From contig JACIZN010000003.1 in assembly GCA_014359405.1 (NCBI GenBank), forward strand, positions 1-33,832: a stretch of DNA of 33,832 nt, written 5' to 3'. Position 1 is the stretch's first letter; every line of letters begins with the position of its first letter. Below are positions 15,787-28,260 of this stretch, in pieces. The notes under the pieces are model-generated. The model saw nothing but the letters and a program-made list of their open reading frames with translations, did not search any database and was not told the origin of the DNA. This stretch comes from Candidatus Caldatribacterium sp. (lineage in GTDB: Bacteria; Atribacterota; Atribacteria; Atribacterales; Caldatribacteriaceae). The translations under genes and the position numbers were made by a program.

Positions 15787-16506
15787 TCAATCCTCCTCTC
15801 CCCATGGAATCATGAGGAAGCGGGAAATGGCAAAGACCGCACTTTCCTCCCATTCTATAGAGCGGTAACAATCCTTTTTCTCTTCCCAGAGGCTGGCAAA
15901 AAAGATGGGAAGCCGAAGAATCTCTCCAAGAGATTTCGTCCTTTGCCACCCTTCCCTGAGAAGAGAAGAATCCGTTTCCCGCATAAGGTGCGTGTTAGCA
16001 ACAAGGGAGGCAAAGGAAATACCGTAGCGCCTTTTCATGTCTTCCACAAAGCTGACGTAACTTGCAATTTCCTCAAAGAAAGGCCGCGCGAAATTCACAA
16101 CAAGAGTCACATGGGTATTCCCTTTCTCCCAGAAGGGCTTCAGACTCCGAAAGAGGCGCAAACCCTTCTCATCTCTTCCAAGATCCACCACAAGACGTAG
16201 TCCATTCCCCACCTGGGAGAAGAGGTCAACAAGGTCTTTTGTAAAAAGAGGTGTTTCTGTGTAAGAGGCCTTCCCTTTGTGGGGGAAAAGGAGATGAGAG
16301 ATGCCAAATCGTGGACTCCGCAGGGTAAAGTCCCCCTTCGAAAAATCAAGGTCCAGAAGGGCACAGGGGATGCCTCTCTTTTCAAGGAAAACACAGAAAT
16401 TTGCCGCGACCTCGCTTTTTCCTGTGCCTCCTGGGCCAGAAAAAACAAAAACTTCGCCTTCTGCCACAATTTCCTCAAGAACTCTGCTCGACTTCAAGAG
16501 TTCCAC
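15787..16506 (-). CDS. MinD/ParA-like P-loop ATPase, function unknown
   Basis: 239-residue nucleotide-binding protein of the SIMIBI (MinD/ParA/ArsA) type. The P-loop GPGGTGKS (residues 24-31) keeps the double glycine and GKS but lacks the signature lysine of the deviant Walker A motif (KGGxGK), having proline there. ALLDLDFSKGDF (about 49-60) matches the Walker A' region, and a VVDLGRDEKGLRLF segment and VTLVVNFARPF follow. GTG 16506 is chosen because GAGGAGAG lies six bases upstream; it overlaps recN by 32 bases. The gene sits four bases before the ferredoxin of the 2-oxoacid oxidoreductase, so a maturation or metal/cofactor role for that enzyme is possible, but there is no direct evidence. 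Confidence 0.8.
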   Translation of the reverse strand: MELLKSSRVLEEIVAEGEVFVFSGPGGTGKSEVAANFCVFLEKRGIPCALLDLDFSKGDFTLRSPRFGISHLLFPHKGKASYTETPLFTKDLVDLFSQVGNGLRLVVDLGRDEKGLRLFRSLKPFWEKGNTHVTLVVNFARPFFEEIASYVSFVEDMKRRYGISFASLVANTHLMRETDSSLLREGWQRTKSLGEILRLPIFFASLWEEKKDCYRSIEWEESAVFAISRFLMIPWGEED

Positions 16507-18154
16507 TCTGGGCTCTCCTCATAAGGATTTCGGCATACTCAAGGCTTGGGGCTCTTCTACCTTCGTCGCCCATCATGCGAGCAATTTCCTCAAGGCGAGC
16601 TTCCCGGGAGGAAAGGGGTGTCACCTCAACCCATGCCCGGTCCTGAGTATAGAACTTCTCCACTTTCAGGTGATGGTCAGCAAAGCTTGCAATCTGCGGC
16701 AGATGGGTGATACACAGGACCTGGTGCGCCCTTGCGAGCTTTTTCAGCTTATCCCCAACCCCGAAGGCCGTAACGCCTCCAATACCCTGGTCAATTTCAT
16801 CAAACACAAGCACCGGAGTTCCCCAAAAAGCAGAGGCAATACTCTTGAGAGCGAGAATAATTCGGGAGAGTTCTCCTCCCGAGGCCACACCGAGAACCGG
16901 AAGGGGACGTACTCCAGGATTTAGGGAAACGCAAAGCTCTACCTCGTCAATCCCCTCGGGGTGAGGAGAATCCCTTCTCTGGAGAAGGATTTCCAAAGTA
17001 GCATTCGGCAAGGCAAGGGTTTTCAACTCCTCCATGAGCCTTTCTTTCAGGACCTCAAAGGCGCGGCGCCGTTCCGCAGAAAGTTCTCCCCCAAGGAGAA
17101 GAAGTTCCCGCATCAAAAGCTCTATACGCTCCTCTAATTTCCTCTTCCGATGGAGTTCCTCCTCAAGAACTCTTTTCCTCGCCTCAAGACCCTCTAAAAA
17201 CTTCACAAACTCAGTGGTCGTAAAGAAACGATACTTCCTCTTCAAACGCTCAATTTCAGCTATCGCTTGTTCCACTACCTCCACTCTCTCCGGAGAGAAG
17301 GAAAAAGCCTCTTCCATAGTCTGCACACAACGTAGTGCCTCTTCAAGTTCAACCTTTACCCGCTCCAGGATTTCTTGAACTTCCGGGGAGAGGTCCTGAA
17401 AGAGAGCGCGAATGTGGGAGAGCTTCCTGAGTATTCCTCCCTCTCCCAGGACGTTTTCTGAAAAAACCCTTGCAGCTTCAAGGTATTTCTGGGCCTGGGA
17501 AATCCGCCCAAATTCCTCTTCAAGGGCAAGAATTCCCTCCGGCGTGAACCCTAAGCGACCAACTTCTTCAAGAGCCTCTTCAATATCCGCAAGTTCTTTC
17601 TCCTGGCCTTTTTCAAGGAGAGCAAGCTCCCTTTCAAGAAGCCTTCTTTCCTCAAAGCGAGTCTCATACTCCTTTTTGACCTTTTTCCCCTCCTCCGAAA
17701 GGAAGAAATCGAGCACCCGGAGCATGTTAGAGGGGCTCAAAAAAGAAGTGTGCTCCCTCTGTCCACAGATATCCACAAGACTTGAGGCCACATCTCGGAG
17801 AATCCCAAGGGGAACAGGTCTCCCGTTGATTCGGGCTCGGCTCTTTCCCTCACAGGTAAACTCCCGGGAGAGAACCACAAAATTCCCGGTCTCAAGAGGG
17901 ATACCGAGTTCCTCAATTCTACGTCTCGCCTCTTCGGCGCTTTCCAAAGAGAAACAGCCTTCTACAGCTGCCTTTGAGCTTCCCGGACGAACCCATTCCT
18001 CCCTTGCCCGGGCTCCCAAAAGGAGAGAAAGGGCATTGACAAGGAGCGATTTTCCGGTGCCGGTTTCCCCCGTGATGACATTGAGCCCCGGGGCAAAGGT
18101 TATCTCCTGGTACTCCACAAGGATAAAATCACGAATGACCAAGGTCCTCAGCAT
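16475..18154 (-). CDS. recN: DNA repair ATPase RecN
   Basis: SMC-like protein that acts early at double-strand breaks. 559 residues, full length. The N-terminal Walker A GETGTGKS follows the VIRDFILVEYQEITFAPGLNVI segment. QREHTSFLSPSNMLRVLDFF, a long coiled coil (about residues 155-390, rich in Glu, Arg and Leu), the ABC signature GVASGGELSRIILALK, the Walker B VLVFDEIDQGIGG and the ITHLPQIASFADHHL switch are all in the RecN order. The ATG overlaps the nadK stop by seven bases; nadK followed by recN is a common bacterial pair. The C-terminal end overlaps the start of the next ATPase gene. Confidence 0.97.
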   Translation of the reverse strand: MLRTLVIRDFILVEYQEITFAPGLNVITGETGTGKSLLVNALSLLLGARAREEWVRPGSSKAAVEGCFSLESAEEARRRIEELGIPLETGNFVVLSREFTCEGKSRARINGRPVPLGILRDVASSLVDICGQREHTSFLSPSNMLRVLDFFLSEEGKKVKKEYETRFEERRLLERELALLEKGQEKELADIEEALEEVGRLGFTPEGILALEEEFGRISQAQKYLEAARVFSENVLGEGGILRKLSHIRALFQDLSPEVQEILERVKVELEEALRCVQTMEEAFSFSPERVEVVEQAIAEIERLKRKYRFFTTTEFVKFLEGLEARKRVLEEELHRKRKLEERIELLMRELLLLGGELSAERRRAFEVLKERLMEELKTLALPNATLEILLQRRDSPHPEGIDEVELCVSLNPGVRPLPVLGVASGGELSRIILALKSIASAFWGTPVLVFDEIDQGIGGVTAFGVGDKLKKLARAHQVLCITHLPQIASFADHHLKVEKFYTQDRAWVEVTPLSSREARLEEIARMMGDEGRRAPSLEYAEILMRRAQSGTLEVEQSS

Positions 18155-19011
18155 TCCTGCTCCACTCGCTTCCGAATATCCATGCCCCAGGAAAGCTTAT
18201 TCCGCAAAAGGGCGTAGAAGGGTCGCCCTGGAGAGAGATGGGCGAACCTCGCAGAAAATGGCGACCGGTACACAGTAATGTACTCTCCCCTTTTGAGGGC
18301 ATATCCTCTCTGCCCATCAAGCGTCACCATCGTCCCCTCCTTAAGGGATTCAAGAACCACACGGATGCAGGAAGAGGGTGGAACCACAATAGATCTGGCG
18401 TACAGCGTATGAGCACAAATCGGTGTGACGATGAAAAGCTCAAGACCCGGGAATACCACTGGTCCACCAGCCGAGAGGGAATACGCACTTGAGCCCGTGG
18501 GGGAGGCAACGATGAGTCCATCAGCTGGAAAAGAGGCCAGAAACTCTCCGTCGATATACGTGGAAAGACGAATCATCTGGGCAAAGGGACCACGGTAGAT
18601 AACGACATCGTTAAGGGCAAAGTCCTCTTCTTCCTGGCCATCTCCATGGGTAACACGACAGTGAAGCATCATTCGCTCTTCAATGGTAAAAGCTCCCGAA
18701 GCAATCTGCTCCGCAGCTTTGTCCATTTCCTCTACACTTACTTCTGCAAGGAATCCAAGGCCTCCGAGATCCACCCCAAGAAGGGGAACCCCAAAAGGGG
18801 CGTACAGATGACACGCCGCAAGGAACGTTCCATCCCCTCCCACAACGAGGACGAGATCGGGAGGGAGAATTTCCCCTTCCCCTTCCCTTACCAAAAGGGC
18901 ATTAATGCCCCGTTTCTCGAGGAGTCTAATGAACTTCCAGGCGTTATCAATGACGAAACTGTCTTTCCTTCGCACGAACACATGGACACTGTTTACGTCC
19001 ACTTGCCCCAT
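18148..19011 (-). CDS. nadK: NAD kinase
   Basis: Phosphorylates NAD to NADP. 287 residues from ATG 19011. The GGDGT motif is at residues 58-62, followed by LLGVDLGGLGFLAEV, the FALNDVVIYRG substrate motif, DGLIVASPTGSSAYSLSAGGPVV and ICAHTLYARSIVVP, all typical of NadK. A start at 19056 would add 15 residues inside the upstream gene and is unlikely; an AGGA sequence lies just before 19011. The gene overlaps the upstream nuclease-like gene by 19 bases and recN by seven. Confidence 0.95.
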   Translation of the reverse strand: MGQVDVNSVHVFVRRKDSFVIDNAWKFIRLLEKRGINALLVREGEGEILPPDLVLVVGGDGTFLAACHLYAPFGVPLLGVDLGGLGFLAEVSVEEMDKAAEQIASGAFTIEERMMLHCRVTHGDGQEEEDFALNDVVIYRGPFAQMIRLSTYIDGEFLASFPADGLIVASPTGSSAYSLSAGGPVVFPGLELFIVTPICAHTLYARSIVVPPSSCIRVVLESLKEGTMVTLDGQRGYALKRGEYITVYRSPFSARFAHLSPGRPFYALLRNKLSWGMDIRKRVEQEC

Positions 19012-19520
19012 CGTCCTATGAGAAATCCCCCCAGGAAAAATACTGCCCACATCCATCGCATCCTTTTCAAGGGCGAAAAGACCCAGGGAAAGGACACCTC
19101 ATGCACCTTTCCCCCTTCCCCGTCCACAAAGAGCACCGAGCAGGGAGCAAAAAGGAGCGCGTACTCAAGGAGTTGTCTCCGTACGGAGGGATTTTCAGGA
19201 GTCTCTGCCTGCTTTCCTGTTTTGACTTCGGCAACATACTTTTTCCCTTCTCGCTCGAGGAGGTAATCAATCCGGACCCGAAAGGGAACCCTCCGCCCAT
19301 CGACCAGGAAGAAGGCCTCCTTCTCAACCTGCTCTCCCACGCAGCGAAAGCCTTTCTCTTCAAGAAAGTGAACGGCTCTTCTCTCAAGTGTCCGGGCCCG
19401 CTGCAGGGAACGTCGCAGAACCCGCCTCCGCCTCCAAGCTTCGATACGCAGCGTGCCCCAGACGACAACCGCAACAAAAAATGCAAGGAGAACAGCAACC
19501 TCAAACACCGAAAAATTCAT
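18993..19520 (-). CDS. Membrane-anchored PD-(D/E)XK nuclease-like protein, function unknown
   Basis: 175 residues. A hydrophobic N-terminal helix (about residues 8-22) is followed by a very basic segment (WRRRRVLRRSLQRAR). A compact domain with RecB-like motifs comes next: E46 in the first helix, D85 in IDYLL, E98 and K100 in AEVKTGK, and a Q116-x3-Y120 pattern in QLLEYALLF. A second hydrophobic stretch lies at about 156-168. This predicts a PD-(D/E)XK fold held at the inner membrane, with positive charge next to the helix suggesting a cytoplasmic catalytic domain. Nuclease activity is inferred from motifs only; such folds can be inactive. The gene overlaps tlyA by 20 bases and nadK by 19. 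I do not recognise a named family. Confidence 0.75.
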   Translation of the reverse strand: MNFSVFEVAVLLAFFVAVVVWGTLRIEAWRRRRVLRRSLQRARTLERRAVHFLEEKGFRCVGEQVEKEAFFLVDGRRVPFRVRIDYLLEREGKKYVAEVKTGKQAETPENPSVRRQLLEYALLFAPCSVLFVDGEGGKVHEVSFPWVFSPLKRMRWMWAVFFLGGFLIGRWGKWT

Positions 19521-20310
19521 GCGCGCTCTGCACCACTTTTAGTATTATACTGCTTTTTTCTACCCCCGTTAAGGACGGTTTCCCTTTTCGAAGGTGCGCG
19601 AAGAATTCAATATTCCCCCGGGGACCAAGAAGAGGAGAAAAGGTCAGAGAACAAAGCCCAAGCCCCTTTTCTTCGGCAACGCCAAGAACCGTCTCGAGAA
19701 CCTCCCTGTGGGTCTCTGGGTCTTTTACGACTCCCCTTTTGACCTTTCCTCTTCCCGCCTCAAACTGGGGCTTCACAAGGGCAATAACCATTCCCTGATC
19801 CTTCAAAATGGAAGCTATAGCCTCCCAGAGGAGTCTCAGGGAGATGAAGGATACATCCACCGTCACCCCATCCACCTGTTCCCCAATCTCCTCAGGGGTG
19901 AGGTAACGGGCGTTGCACCCTTCAAGGAGCACAACCTGAGGGGAAGCACGGAGTTTTTCGTGGAGTTGCCCTCGCCCTACATCGATTGCATAGACCTTTG
20001 CGGCTCCATGCTGCAAAAGACAGTCGGTGAAACCCCCGGTAGAAGCTCCGATGTCGGCAAAAGTGAGACCTGAAGGGTCAATCTGAAATGCCCGGAGTGC
20101 CCACTCAAGCTTTTCCCCACCTCGACTCACGTACTTTGGTGGCTCAAGGAGCACAAGAGGAGCATCTTCGGGAACAAGGGTTGAGGGCTTGAGGATTCCG
20201 GAAAATCCCTCCACCCGAACTTTTCCCCCAAGAATGAGACGTTGCGCTTTTTCCCTGCTCTCGCAAAGACCGCGCTGTGTCAAAAGAACATCAAGGCGAA
20301 CCCGATTCAT
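19501..20310 (-). CDS. tlyA: TlyA rRNA 2'-O-methyltransferase
   Basis: Ribose methylation of rRNA cytidines (16S C1409 and/or 23S C1920 in characterised members). 269 residues: an N-terminal S4 RNA-binding domain (RLDVLLTQRGLCESREKAQRL, then GKVRVEG), then an FtsJ/RrmJ methyltransferase domain with YVSRGGEKLEWALRAF, the SAM-binding DIGASTGGFTDCLLQHGA, VYAIDVGRGQLHEKLR, VDVSFISL and the catalytic-lysine region LVKPQFEAGR. The length suggests the TlyA-II type (longer N-terminus), although this subdivision is uncertain. It starts three bases after the ispA stop; the ispA-tlyA-nadK-recN order is a common bacterial arrangement, here with one extra gene. Confidence 0.94.
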   Translation of the reverse strand: MNRVRLDVLLTQRGLCESREKAQRLILGGKVRVEGFSGILKPSTLVPEDAPLVLLEPPKYVSRGGEKLEWALRAFQIDPSGLTFADIGASTGGFTDCLLQHGAAKVYAIDVGRGQLHEKLRASPQVVLLEGCNARYLTPEEIGEQVDGVTVDVSFISLRLLWEAIASILKDQGMVIALVKPQFEAGRGKVKRGVVKDPETHREVLETVLGVAEEKGLGLCSLTFSPLLGPRGNIEFFAHLRKGKPSLTGVEKSSIILKVVQSAHEFFGV

Positions 20311-20313
20311 CCC

Positions 20314-21201
20314 TCAGCGGTCCCTGGTAACAACAAAGTGCGATAGAGCAAGAAGCGTTGTAAAATCCCGAGGCAGAGAGACAAGAATGTGGCAGGCTCT
20401 CTCGAAGAGATCGTTCATGATTTTTTCTGCCTTTGCTATGCCCCACACCCGAACAAGGGTTGCTTTCCCCTGCACCAAATCCTTTCCCGCAGTCTTCCCA
20501 AGACGAGCGCTTTCCTGCGTAACATCGAGGAGGTCATCCTTTATCTGGAAACATTCCCCAAGAAGGAGTCCAAAGCGAGCAAGAAGATTCCTCTCCTTTC
20601 TGGGGGCGCCTCCGAGAATCCCTCCGCAGAGAATCGGAGCCTGAATGAAACGGGCAGTTTTGCGATGGTATATCTCGAACACTTCCTGCTCAGTTACCTC
20701 CTTACCCTGGTAGAGGAGATCGAGAACCTGTCCACCAACCATTCCTTGATTGCCCAGAGCCTCAAGAAGCACCTGCAAGATAGCGGTGACCTTACGGGTA
20801 CCAAAGGTCTTAAGAAACACCCGATCCCCCACAAACATCCGAAACCCTTCCACAAGGAGAGCGTCCCCAGCAAGAACTCCCATGGCTTCCCCAAAGGCCC
20901 TGTGGAGGCTCGGCTTCCCTCTCCGGAAATCGTCGTTGTCCATACAGGGGAGATCGTCGTGCACCAGGGAGAAGGAATGAATCATCTCAATTCCTGCCGC
21001 TAAAGGAAGCACCTTTTCTTCGGGAATACCATAGGCCTGAGCAGTAGCAAAAAGAAGTGAAGCTCTGAGCTTTTTCCCTCCGGTCGCCCCGTACACCACT
21101 GAATCCCAGAGAATCTGGGGAACCCCCGTGCGCGGGAGATGCTCCCTTGTGAATTCCTCAACAAGCTGGGCATTTCTTGCAAGGAGTTCCTCAACACTCA
21201 T
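20314..21201 (-). CDS. ispA: Type II short-chain polyprenyl diphosphate synthase (FPP synthase-like)
   Basis: Condenses IPP with DMAPP/GPP to farnesyl (or geranylgeranyl) diphosphate. 295 residues. The first aspartate-rich motif DDLPCMDNDD starts at residue 82 and has the two-residue insert of bacterial type II enzymes. The second is DDLLDVT, preceded by GECFQIK. GGKKLRASLLF is also conserved. An aromatic Phe five positions before the first motif (F77) suggests a short product, hence FPP, but GGPP cannot be excluded. ATG 21201 has AAGGAG nine bases upstream. The usual neighbour dxs is replaced directly by tlyA. Confidence 0.92.
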   Translation of the reverse strand: MSVEELLARNAQLVEEFTREHLPRTGVPQILWDSVVYGATGGKKLRASLLFATAQAYGIPEEKVLPLAAGIEMIHSFSLVHDDLPCMDNDDFRRGKPSLHRAFGEAMGVLAGDALLVEGFRMFVGDRVFLKTFGTRKVTAILQVLLEALGNQGMVGGQVLDLLYQGKEVTEQEVFEIYHRKTARFIQAPILCGGILGGAPRKERNLLARFGLLLGECFQIKDDLLDVTQESARLGKTAGKDLVQGKATLVRVWGIAKAEKIMNDLFERACHILVSLPRDFTTLLALSHFVVTRDR

Positions 21202-26559: not shown

Positions 26560-28260
26560 TCAGTACTCAATGACGTGAGGAGTGAGGAAGACAACGAGCT
26601 CCGTCTCCTTGTGGGTCCTGCTCCGAAGCACAAAGAGGTTTCCGAGGAGAGGAAGCTCGCTGAGGATAGGTATTCGGGTGATTCTCTCGATGTCCTCGCT
26701 CCGGATGAGCCCGCCGATGACCAAAGTTTCTCCAGGACGTAGCCGGGCAGTGGTATCGGCGTTTTTGACCGTCTTCTGGGGATCCCTAAATGTCAAGCCA
26801 GCCAAAACGTACTCTCGCTCGATATAGGTGCTTACTTCAGGCTTGGCATGGACCACAACTGTCCCTTCCTGGGTAAGAACTGGGGTTACCTTAAGGGTGA
26901 TTCCTACCTCCAGAAATTGCAGTTTTCCCGGAATAAGACGTCCTTCCTCATCGATTTCAAGATCGCGGTAAGGGATAGCGTCTCCCACATGAATTGTTGC
27001 CGTCTTACCACTCAACGTCAGAATCCTCGGGTTTCCAACTAATCTTGCCAGATTCTTCTTCTCCAAGGCTTTAATGGTCATTTCCACAAGGTCCTGGCGC
27101 TCCATAGGTCCACCGATGCTGAGTTCCCCAAAGGTGATTTCCCCTTCCTTTCCACCGACGGTCCAGGTTACCCCAAGGTCTTTTACTTTCTCTCGGTTAA
27201 TTTCCACAAGCTTTGCATCGATCATGACTTGAGGGAGTTTCCGGTCGAGATTAGAGAGCAACTCTGCAACGGCCTTCATTTCCTCTGGAGTTCCCCGAAC
27301 GACGAAAGCTTTCTGGGCAAAGTCGTAGTTCACCCGTTCCTCCTCGGGTATAACAATCTTGAGGAGTTCTCTAACTTTCTTAAGCTGCTCCTCGTCTTCG
27401 TAGATGTTATTGGAAAGGTAAAAAACTCTTGTCTCGAGGGCAACGTCTATTTTCTCCAGAGTTTCCGCAACTTTCTGGAACTCCTCCTCCCTTCCCCGAA
27501 TGACAAGTGCTCGACCTACGGTGTCAACAGCAACGCGTTCTGGTGGAACGATGAGGCTAATAATTTCTTTTGCTTTCTCGGGATCGATGCTCTTCAAGGG
27601 AAACCGCTGAATCCTCAGAAGCCCAAAGTTCTCCTCAAGCTTACTCTTCTCCGCCACGATAATGTTGTTCCCAAAGCGCACCTGACCAAGTCCCTTCATG
27701 GTGAGAATGTATCCCAAGGCCTGCTCGAAAGTGAGGTTTTCAAAGGAGAGCGTAATGGTTCCCTGCACAGAGTCATCCACGACGATATTCACACCTTTAG
27801 CCTTGGCAAGGGCAAGGAGAACGTCCCTGATATCGGCATCTCGGAAACTAAAGGAGAAGCGTTCTTCCTCTCCCGGGGGAGCAAAAGGACCCTTGAAGAG
27901 GACACTCACGAGCCGACCACCTGCTTCGTCGTACACCTCGTAAGGGACAGAATCCTTCAGCTCTATCCAGATTCTGAGGTTCCCCTCCTCTTCCCGGAAG
28001 ATAATACTCTGCACCGGGCCAATATGCATCGGCCGCTCGGCATAGGGAACCCCTCTTTTGGCTCCAGCAATATCAAGGACAACGTGGTACGGATCGGGAG
28101 AGACATCCTCCCAGGTACAGGGAGCGTCGAACTTAAAAGTGAGCTTGATTTCATTGCTATCGGCCCGGAAGAAGAAATCCCGAAGCTCAAGAGGCAATGC
28201 CGGAGAGACGAAAAGGCTAAGGCAAAGGAGCGCAAAAAGTACTATTCTTCGAGCGAAAAT
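26560..28260 (-). CDS. pilQ: Type IV pilus secretin PilQ, predicted ATT start
   Basis: Outer-membrane ring of a type IV pilus or type II secretion system. Domains in order: an AMIN-like N-terminal domain (about residues 22-125), a secretin/TonB short N domain (FRDADIRDVLLALAKAKGVNIVV), two NolW/N1-type repeats (VAVDTVGRALVIRGREEEF and NYDFAQKAFVVRGTPEEM), then the secretin core ending GETLVIGGLIRS and PLLGNLFVLRS. The first in-frame conventional start is TTG 28197, which removes any signal peptide. The frame upstream encodes FARRIVLFALLCLSLFVSPA, a clear signal peptide, but holds no ATG, GTG, TTG or CTG. ATT at 28258-28260 follows GGGGAGGGA by six bases, so I propose an ATT start giving 566 residues. 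It overlaps the PilP-like gene by 19 bases. Confidence 0.88.
   Translation of the reverse strand: MFARRIVLFALLCLSLFVSPALPLELRDFFFRADSNEIKLTFKFDAPCTWEDVSPDPYHVVLDIAGAKRGVPYAERPMHIGPVQSIIFREEEGNLRIWIELKDSVPYEVYDEAGGRLVSVLFKGPFAPPGEEERFSFSFRDADIRDVLLALAKAKGVNIVVDDSVQGTITLSFENLTFEQALGYILTMKGLGQVRFGNNIIVAEKSKLEENFGLLRIQRFPLKSIDPEKAKEIISLIVPPERVAVDTVGRALVIRGREEEFQKVAETLEKIDVALETRVFYLSNNIYEDEEQLKKVRELLKIVIPEEERVNYDFAQKAFVVRGTPEEMKAVAELLSNLDRKLPQVMIDAKLVEINREKVKDLGVTWTVGGKEGEITFGELSIGGPMERQDLVEMTIKALEKKNLARLVGNPRILTLSGKTATIHVGDAIPYRDLEIDEEGRLIPGKLQFLEVGITLKVTPVLTQEGTVVVHAKPEVSTYIEREYVLAGLTFRDPQKTVKNADTTARLRPGETLVIGGLIRSEDIERITRIPILSELPLLGNLFVLRSRTHKETELVVFLTPHVIEY

Follow-up and report, generated by a model that had tools for sequence, protein, structure and literature searches.

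A putative PD-(D/E)XK nuclease with predicted membrane helices at both ends, from the tlyA-nadK locus of Atribacterota and some Bacillota

Gene X and its genomic surroundings

The window, that is the whole stretch of 33,832 nucleotides of Candidatus Caldatribacterium sp. that was analysed, carries on its minus strand a gene between tlyA and nadK, here called gene X. A sequence-only reading of this DNA had proposed a small membrane protein at 18993-19520 without giving a strand, and the gene is confirmed at that position. The tlyA and nadK neighbours that it named were also borne out by Pfam, and the frame taken to be recN is the second gene 3' of gene X. The features of the locus are as follows.

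16475..18154, minus strand: recN, second gene downstream of gene X and kept in orthologous loci (a frame taken to be recN from the sequence-only reading)
18148..19056, minus strand: nadK, downstream of gene X, NAD kinase (Pfam); the listed frame overlaps gene X by 64 bp
18993..19520, minus strand: gene X, predicted 175-aa membrane-anchored PD-(D/E)XK protein, with an ATG start and a TAA stop at 18993-18995
19501..20310, minus strand: tlyA, upstream of gene X, member of an rRNA methyltransferase family with S4 and FtsJ domains (Pfam); 20-bp overlap with gene X
20314..21201, minus strand: ispA-like polyprenyl synthetase gene, upstream of tlyA (Pfam)

The overlap between nadK and gene X shrinks to 19 bp if nadK starts at an internal ATG at 19011. 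Gene X is presumably co-transcribed with tlyA and nadK. NusB is also among the products identified by Pfam around it, no helicase is among the identified neighbours, and the pilus block named in the sequence-only reading is represented by a secretin gene at 26560-28197 (same strand, approximately 7 kb upstream; Pfam). Directly 3' of recN lies a frame of 239 aa resembling ParA/MinD-like P-loop ATPases (window 15787-16506, minus strand). Gene X is a real gene: an artefactual ORF is ruled out by homologues in 36 of the 61 genomes of the Atribacterota search, with an internal stop in only one of them (G007). On another contig of the window's genome, an 82-bp stretch shares 98% identity with the 3' part of gene X (G000:C41:10323-10409, L205); it lies next to a stretch of Ns and to sequence resembling a repeat, and seems to be an artefact introduced when the draft genome was assembled or scaffolded.

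Predicted fold, active site and membrane topology

The protein was divided into four parts, which correspond to these positions of the window.

19443..19505, minus strand: N-terminal membrane helix, approximately residues 6-26, from the hydropathy of orthologues; it begins a continuous model helix of residues 5-55
19386..19433, minus strand: cationic juxtamembrane stretch, approximately residues 30-45, from flank charges (positive-inside signal)
19083..19385, minus strand: PD-(D/E)XK domain, approximately residues 46-146, from invariant columns, the Pfam match (residues 41-125) and the fold search
18999..19076, minus strand: C-terminal membrane helix (model helix 149-174), from the model and the hydropathy of orthologues

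The hydrophobic helices at both ends and the cationic stretch that the sequence-only reading described are present. An AlphaFold2 model, calculated from an alignment of 75 homologues of several phyla that had been fetched by motif, reached a mean pLDDT of 94.4 and contains the full alpha/beta core of the PD-(D/E)XK fold that had been suspected. Its elements are a helix (5-55), five strands (59-63, 66-73, 76-83, 86-90 and 93-100), a helix (111-123), two strands (128-133 and 138-142) and a last helix (149-174), so that the whole protein consists of a helix, a nuclease core and a second helix. Within the domain the motifs run in the order E46; D85; E98-x-K100-x-G; R114-R115-Q116-x-L-E119-Y120.

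An alignment of 27 Atribacterota homologues, reaching down to 25% identity, showed E46, A49, L53, G57, Q64, R83, D85, L87, E98, V99, K100, G102, R114, R115, Q116, L118, E119, Y120, F144 and G165 to be invariant; the five residues picked out beforehand (D85, E98, K100, Q116 and Y120) were numbered correctly and are all among them. D85, E98, K100 and Q116 are intact in all 29 scorable Atribacterota homologues, one further locus (L011) being cut at a contig end; these residue counts, like those of synteny below, rest on 30 loci of the 36 positive genomes. Among the 75 homologues, a set fetched by motif, D85, K100, G102, R114-R115-Q116 and E119-Y120 are invariant and position 98 is E or D. Intactness in 80 of 80 loci kept from the motif-pattern fetch holds by construction and is not evidence.

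The window protein matches Pfam family PDDEXK_1 over residues 41-125 (E=2.8e-5); its score of 24.6 bits is slightly higher than the family's cut-off of 22 bits. Searched with its sequence, PDB gave three chance-level rows only (best E=0.3); with the profile A2, the best match was to an Rhs protein, in its C-terminal region (E=9.1e-5), and SSO0001 Cas4 was found at 0.023. Foldseek placed DinG (Finegoldia), AdnAB, SSO0001 Cas4, ACE1 and AddAB as the best solved matches of the model (E from 1e-4). With VIA, the model aligned to AdnAB (Z 8.2, 115 residues aligned, 4.1 A), SSO0001 Cas4 (Z 7.8), Dna2 (Z 7.7) and a splicing endonuclease (Z 8.3, but at an rmsd of 5.9 A), values of 7-8 lying in the range that the program's own warning calls possibly common; the sequence motif agrees nonetheless. 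A predicted PD-(D/E)XK fold with an intact active site and an anchor in the membrane is supported.

The net charge of the 15-residue flanks averages +5.8 after the first membrane helix and -0.3 before it (n=154, the proteins with a detected first helix out of 170). Because of this difference, the positive-inside rule makes it most likely that the nuclease domain is cytoplasmic and that both ends of the protein lie outside. The charge bias therefore speaks against the earlier suggestion that the protein acts on extracellular DNA. The copy in the window probably has nuclease activity and is predicted to sit at the inner face of the membrane.

Distribution and synteny in Atribacterota

The 36 positive genomes are spread over families f1 (that of the window, 11/12), f2 (1/1), f4 (2/2), f5 (9/10) and f7 (13/14); none was found in f3 (0/10), f6 (0/1) or the genomes of other phyla in this search (0/11). 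The order ispA-tlyA-X-nadK-recN holds in 30 loci for each of these genes that was found there; ispA gave no BLAST match in the more distant Atribacterota loci, and some pieces are cut at their ends. Gene X is single copy in 13 of the 13 genomes checked. In f3, tlyA and nadK are separated by 44-107 bp (match to match), with no gene between, in eight of the nine loci fetched with NadK, the ninth being cut.

In the f1 genome G007, gene X is broken by one stop and a frame change into two frames (G007:C8:38248-38666, L031). The same genome encodes a UvrD helicase (945 aa, L208) that is joined to a PD-(D/E)XK domain. The f3 loci from which gene X is cleanly absent (L032-L038 and L040) come from genomes that mostly carry an AddA-type frame, for example the AddB-AddA pair L206.

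Distribution in Bacillota and other phyla

Gene X is not peculiar to the window: the family occurs at this locus across Atribacterota and Bacillota, and scattered members in other phyla lie elsewhere in the genome. The motif-pattern fetch found 146 relatives, of which 80 were kept. The Bacillota relatives among them have the operon; Thermosediminibacter, Heliorestis and Desulforadius, for example, are cultured organisms with an intact form. Another 29 of the 80, by title or tree label from Myxococcota, Planctomycetota, Pseudomonadota, Bacteroidota, Fibrobacterota and Chlamydiota, have no tlyA, nadK, recN or ispA in the fetched flanks.

Sampling of 299 genomes of the Bacillota, the phylum of Thermosediminibacter, gave gene X in 64 by profile search, with one copy in each, and in 68 when the profile included forms that have lost the motif; with the wider profile, one genome (G355) showed two pieces of gene X on two contigs. 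tlyA itself was found in 284 of the 299. Nearly all of the 68 have gene X beside tlyA, nadK or both. At 52 of the 60 loci fetched, tlyA and nadK flank gene X on the same strand, tlyA lying approximately 1.8-2.1 kb away in two of these (L122 and L161); the remaining eight show one flank only within the piece, with a tlyA match 16-17 kb off in G111 and G188. Of 20 control genomes negative for gene X, 19 show tlyA-nadK without it, and one has no nadK nearby. The site between tlyA and nadK is thus a regular one for this family in Atribacterota and in part of the Bacillota. The sequence-only reading had said that most bacteria have no gene here; this is so, but Atribacterota and some of the Bacillota depart from it. 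In three genomes of 6.4-7.3 Mb (L178, L203 and L204) a homologue without the motif follows tlyA, with no NadK match in the piece, and its protein seems to end without the C-terminal membrane helix.

By tblastn, the window protein had no match among phages (50,697 records) or plasmids (72,556 records). Viral contigs were scanned by motif, an approach that would overlook degenerate forms, and no relative was found. On these searches a mobile or viral origin was rejected.

Repeated loss of the active site

The catalytic residues were expected to be kept across homologues, which holds for Atribacterota and fails for much of the Bacillota. The 68 positive Bacillota genomes comprise 35 with an intact motif (33 in the scored set, with L056 and L062 added), 31 in which it is wholly or partly lost (26 by script, with L138, which has gaps at scored columns, and L201-L204 assigned by eye) and two not judged (G285, which was not fetched, and G355, split over contigs); the class called motif-less includes L123, which misses one of the four scored positions only. 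When six catalytic positions were followed in 60 Bacillota orthologues, all six were present in 32, five in one, four in three, and three or fewer in 24. Such all-or-none retention is expected if the six positions are held together by catalysis, and it argues that the intact forms, including that of the window, are likely to cut nucleic acid.

The motif-less forms keep much else. Hydropathy detected the N-terminal helix in 23 of 27 of them (32 of 33 intact orthologues) and the C-terminal helix in 22 of 27 (29 of 33). A basic residue at the position of R114 is kept in 25 of the 27, and K100 and Q116 in three each. The profiles of motif-less and intact forms match at E=5e-37 over 143 columns, the motif-less profile containing 21 of the 27 such forms. 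Among six motif-less pairs tried, two were saturated (L132/L136 and L175/L176); dN/dS was 0.22 for both L179/L180 and L139/L179 (dS <1 in each), and 0.05 and 0.09 for L127/L128 and L126/L127, at high dS values of 1.4 and 2.3, respectively. Intact pairs with measurable dS gave 0.13, 0.13 and 0.21. On these ratios and the open frames, pseudogenes were rejected as an explanation.

On a tree of TlyA and NadK covering 100 loci, the intact/motif-less label needs seven changes, and strongly supported branches force at least three changes for the motif-less group; this is a quick tree with SH-aLRT supports only, no mixture model and a long-branch warning, built from the 100 of 114 loci that had both proteins. 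A second tree, of only 111 columns, has many open forks and does not unite the Atribacterota copies. Since the motif-less proteins retain their place, their fold and, for the most part, their anchors but have given up catalysis, they are, judged by their sequences, pseudonucleases and not pseudogenes, with several independent losses. The repeated loss of the active site shows catalysis to be dispensable in these related lineages, and this points to a second, catalysis-independent role in the Bacillota concerned.

Comparison with known systems

By fold, the model lies closest to AdnAB, SSO0001 Cas4 and Dna2. The nuclease domains of RecB, AddA, AdnAB, Dna2 and DinG (PDDEXK_1, PF12705) share with it the core fold and the order E ... 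D ... E-x-K ... Q-x-x-x-Y. Unlike the RecB-type enzymes, the X protein is free-standing, has two predicted membrane helices and lacks a helicase domain; PF12705 matched only 9 of the 75 homologues at E<=1e-3.

In Cas4 proteins, an iron-sulphur cluster is bound by four conserved cysteines. Cas4 and solo-Cas4 proteins (SSO0001, ACE1) resemble the X protein in being single-domain PD-(D/E)XK proteins (fold matches 4ic1 and 9iab), and weak PADLOC Cas4 matches were obtained for 38 of the 75 homologues. In contrast to Cas4, there is no cysteine among its invariant or nearly invariant columns, and the gene stands in ispA-tlyA-X-nadK-recN and not beside cas genes. The window protein scores 21.6 bits against the NCBIfam Cas4 cut-off of 65 (TIGR00372) and 15 bits against 22.7 for PF01930. 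A true cas4 is encoded on another contig of the window's genome (G000:C11, L210), beside a type I-B-like cas1 and a cas3-like fragment. A role as the Cas4 of CRISPR adaptation is ruled out by the NCBIfam score, the gene order and this separate cas4. In the main text of a phylogenomic survey of Cas4 (PMC5704561), the word 'transmembrane' does not occur.

By working principle, the closest parallels are SmdA and SNIPE. SmdA of staphylococci is described as a membrane protein needed for septum formation, in which the NERD domain is degenerate (PMC9040797). SmdA and NERD proteins share with the predicted X protein the succession of a membrane helix, a long helix and a nuclease-like domain, which may be degenerate, in the cytoplasm; SmdA differs in its single membrane helix and monocistronic gene, according to the same source. 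The NERD profile (PF08378) matched 13 of the 75 homologues at E<=1e-3, and the window protein not even at E<=10. SNIPE is, like the predicted X protein, a membrane-bound nuclease facing the cytoplasm, but it is described as the product of a defence gene with a GIY-YIG fold and DUF4041 (PMC13190303); neither was found in the Pfam scan of the window protein. A restriction-endonuclease-like domain together with a membrane segment is also found in RmuC and in Mrr-type proteins with membrane helices. Neither appeared among the Pfam matches of the window protein and the 75 homologues.

Possible functions

The intact X protein is, somewhat more probably than otherwise, a single-domain metal-dependent nuclease of the RecB/Cas4 branch that would be clamped by a helix at either end and would trim DNA at the inner face of the cytoplasmic membrane, with a role beyond catalysis. 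The two helices would hold the catalytic domain against the membrane and off the nucleoid, so that only DNA located at the membrane would become a substrate: DNA entering the cell, or DNA at membrane-bound sites of replication, segregation or division. Most likely it would cut or trim ends, flaps or single strands reaching the membrane. Persistence of a membrane-bound pseudonuclease in several Bacillota lineages suggests that the tethered domain also binds or acts as a scaffold. The computations establish the gene with its predicted fold, conserved active site and two hydrophobic helices, its synteny and single copy, and the repeated disappearance of the active site; the topology, catalysis, a DNA substrate and the site of action are deduced from these. 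As a counterpoint, the ten genomes of f3 live without gene X. The operon itself says little about function, because it is a mixed housekeeping one. A link to DNA uptake, which the earlier reading had offered as a suggestion on account of the pilus genes, finds no support in the occurrence of comEC (PF03772), a competence gene present in nine of ten f3 genomes, which have no gene X, and in ten of twelve genomes of the X-bearing f1.

The order in which these two activities matter could be the reverse, with the X protein mainly a membrane factor binding DNA or protein and tying nucleoid, division or envelope proteins to the membrane in an SmdA-like way, its ancestral catalysis having been dropped several times. 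The 31 of 66 judged Bacillota orthologues without an active site, mostly in the same place, with both helices and under purifying selection, favour this, as do the basic residue at position 114, kept where K100 and Q116 are mostly gone, the precedent described for the degenerate NERD domain of SmdA (PMC9040797) and the NERD matches among the homologues. It is nevertheless considered rather unlikely: pure scaffolding does not explain why all catalytic residues are kept in Atribacterota and in approximately half of the judged Bacillota, and no division or envelope partner gene adjoins gene X in the tlyA-nadK operon. A role in defence at the site of entry, where the nuclease would cut the DNA of phages or plasmids on its way through the membrane, has a parallel in SNIPE, whose principle and described topology (N-terminus out, a helix, then a cytoplasmic nuclease; PMC13190303) agree with those predicted here; weak PADLOC similarity of homologues to Cas4 and DruK and the patchy presence in other phyla are also consistent with it. 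This role is improbable for a protein without a recognition domain of the SNIPE type, and the conversions to pseudonucleases are hard to reconcile with defence. Inherited vertically, in single copy and fixed in the chromosomal housekeeping operon ispA-tlyA-nadK-recN, gene X does not look like a mobile defence gene.

It could also be supposed that the X protein is a nuclease of repair or recombination that partly replaces helicase-nucleases of the AddAB type. Within the window's order, an AddA-type frame was found in none of 15 genomes of the X-bearing families f1, f2 and f4, against seven of ten of the X-less f3, and recN belongs to the operon. In essence these counts amount to a single phylogenetic contrast; two f3 genomes (G013 and G019) are also without an AddA-type frame, many f5 and f7 genomes carry both gene X and AddAB, and a membrane clamp would be unexpected for a substitute of AddAB, which acts in the cytoplasm on chromosome ends. 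The complementarity is therefore a lead, not a result, and this explanation is thought very improbable.

Significance of the family

No paper on this family or on the tlyA-X-nadK locus was found in the open-access literature searched. Going further than the favoured reading, of a membrane-clamped nuclease that trims DNA, it may tentatively be proposed that gene X represents an undescribed, ancient two-helix family of the RecB/Cas4 type which permanently belongs to the tlyA-nadK operon in Atribacterota and many Clostridia-like Bacillota and handles DNA at the inner side of the membrane. The family would have been converted repeatedly from nuclease to pseudonuclease while keeping both its locus and its anchors; its essential job would then be to hold or sense, at the membrane, DNA or a partner, and cutting would be optional. 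This is possible, although doubtful.

Bacteria keep potent nucleases off their own chromosome, and clamping a nuclease to the membrane at both ends would be a simple way of limiting it to DNA located there. The family is a natural experiment, with one locus and one set of anchors in which the active site is present or absent. Comparison of intact and motif-less forms would separate a role in cutting from one in binding, and could reveal the DNA or the partner that is served by a position at the membrane.
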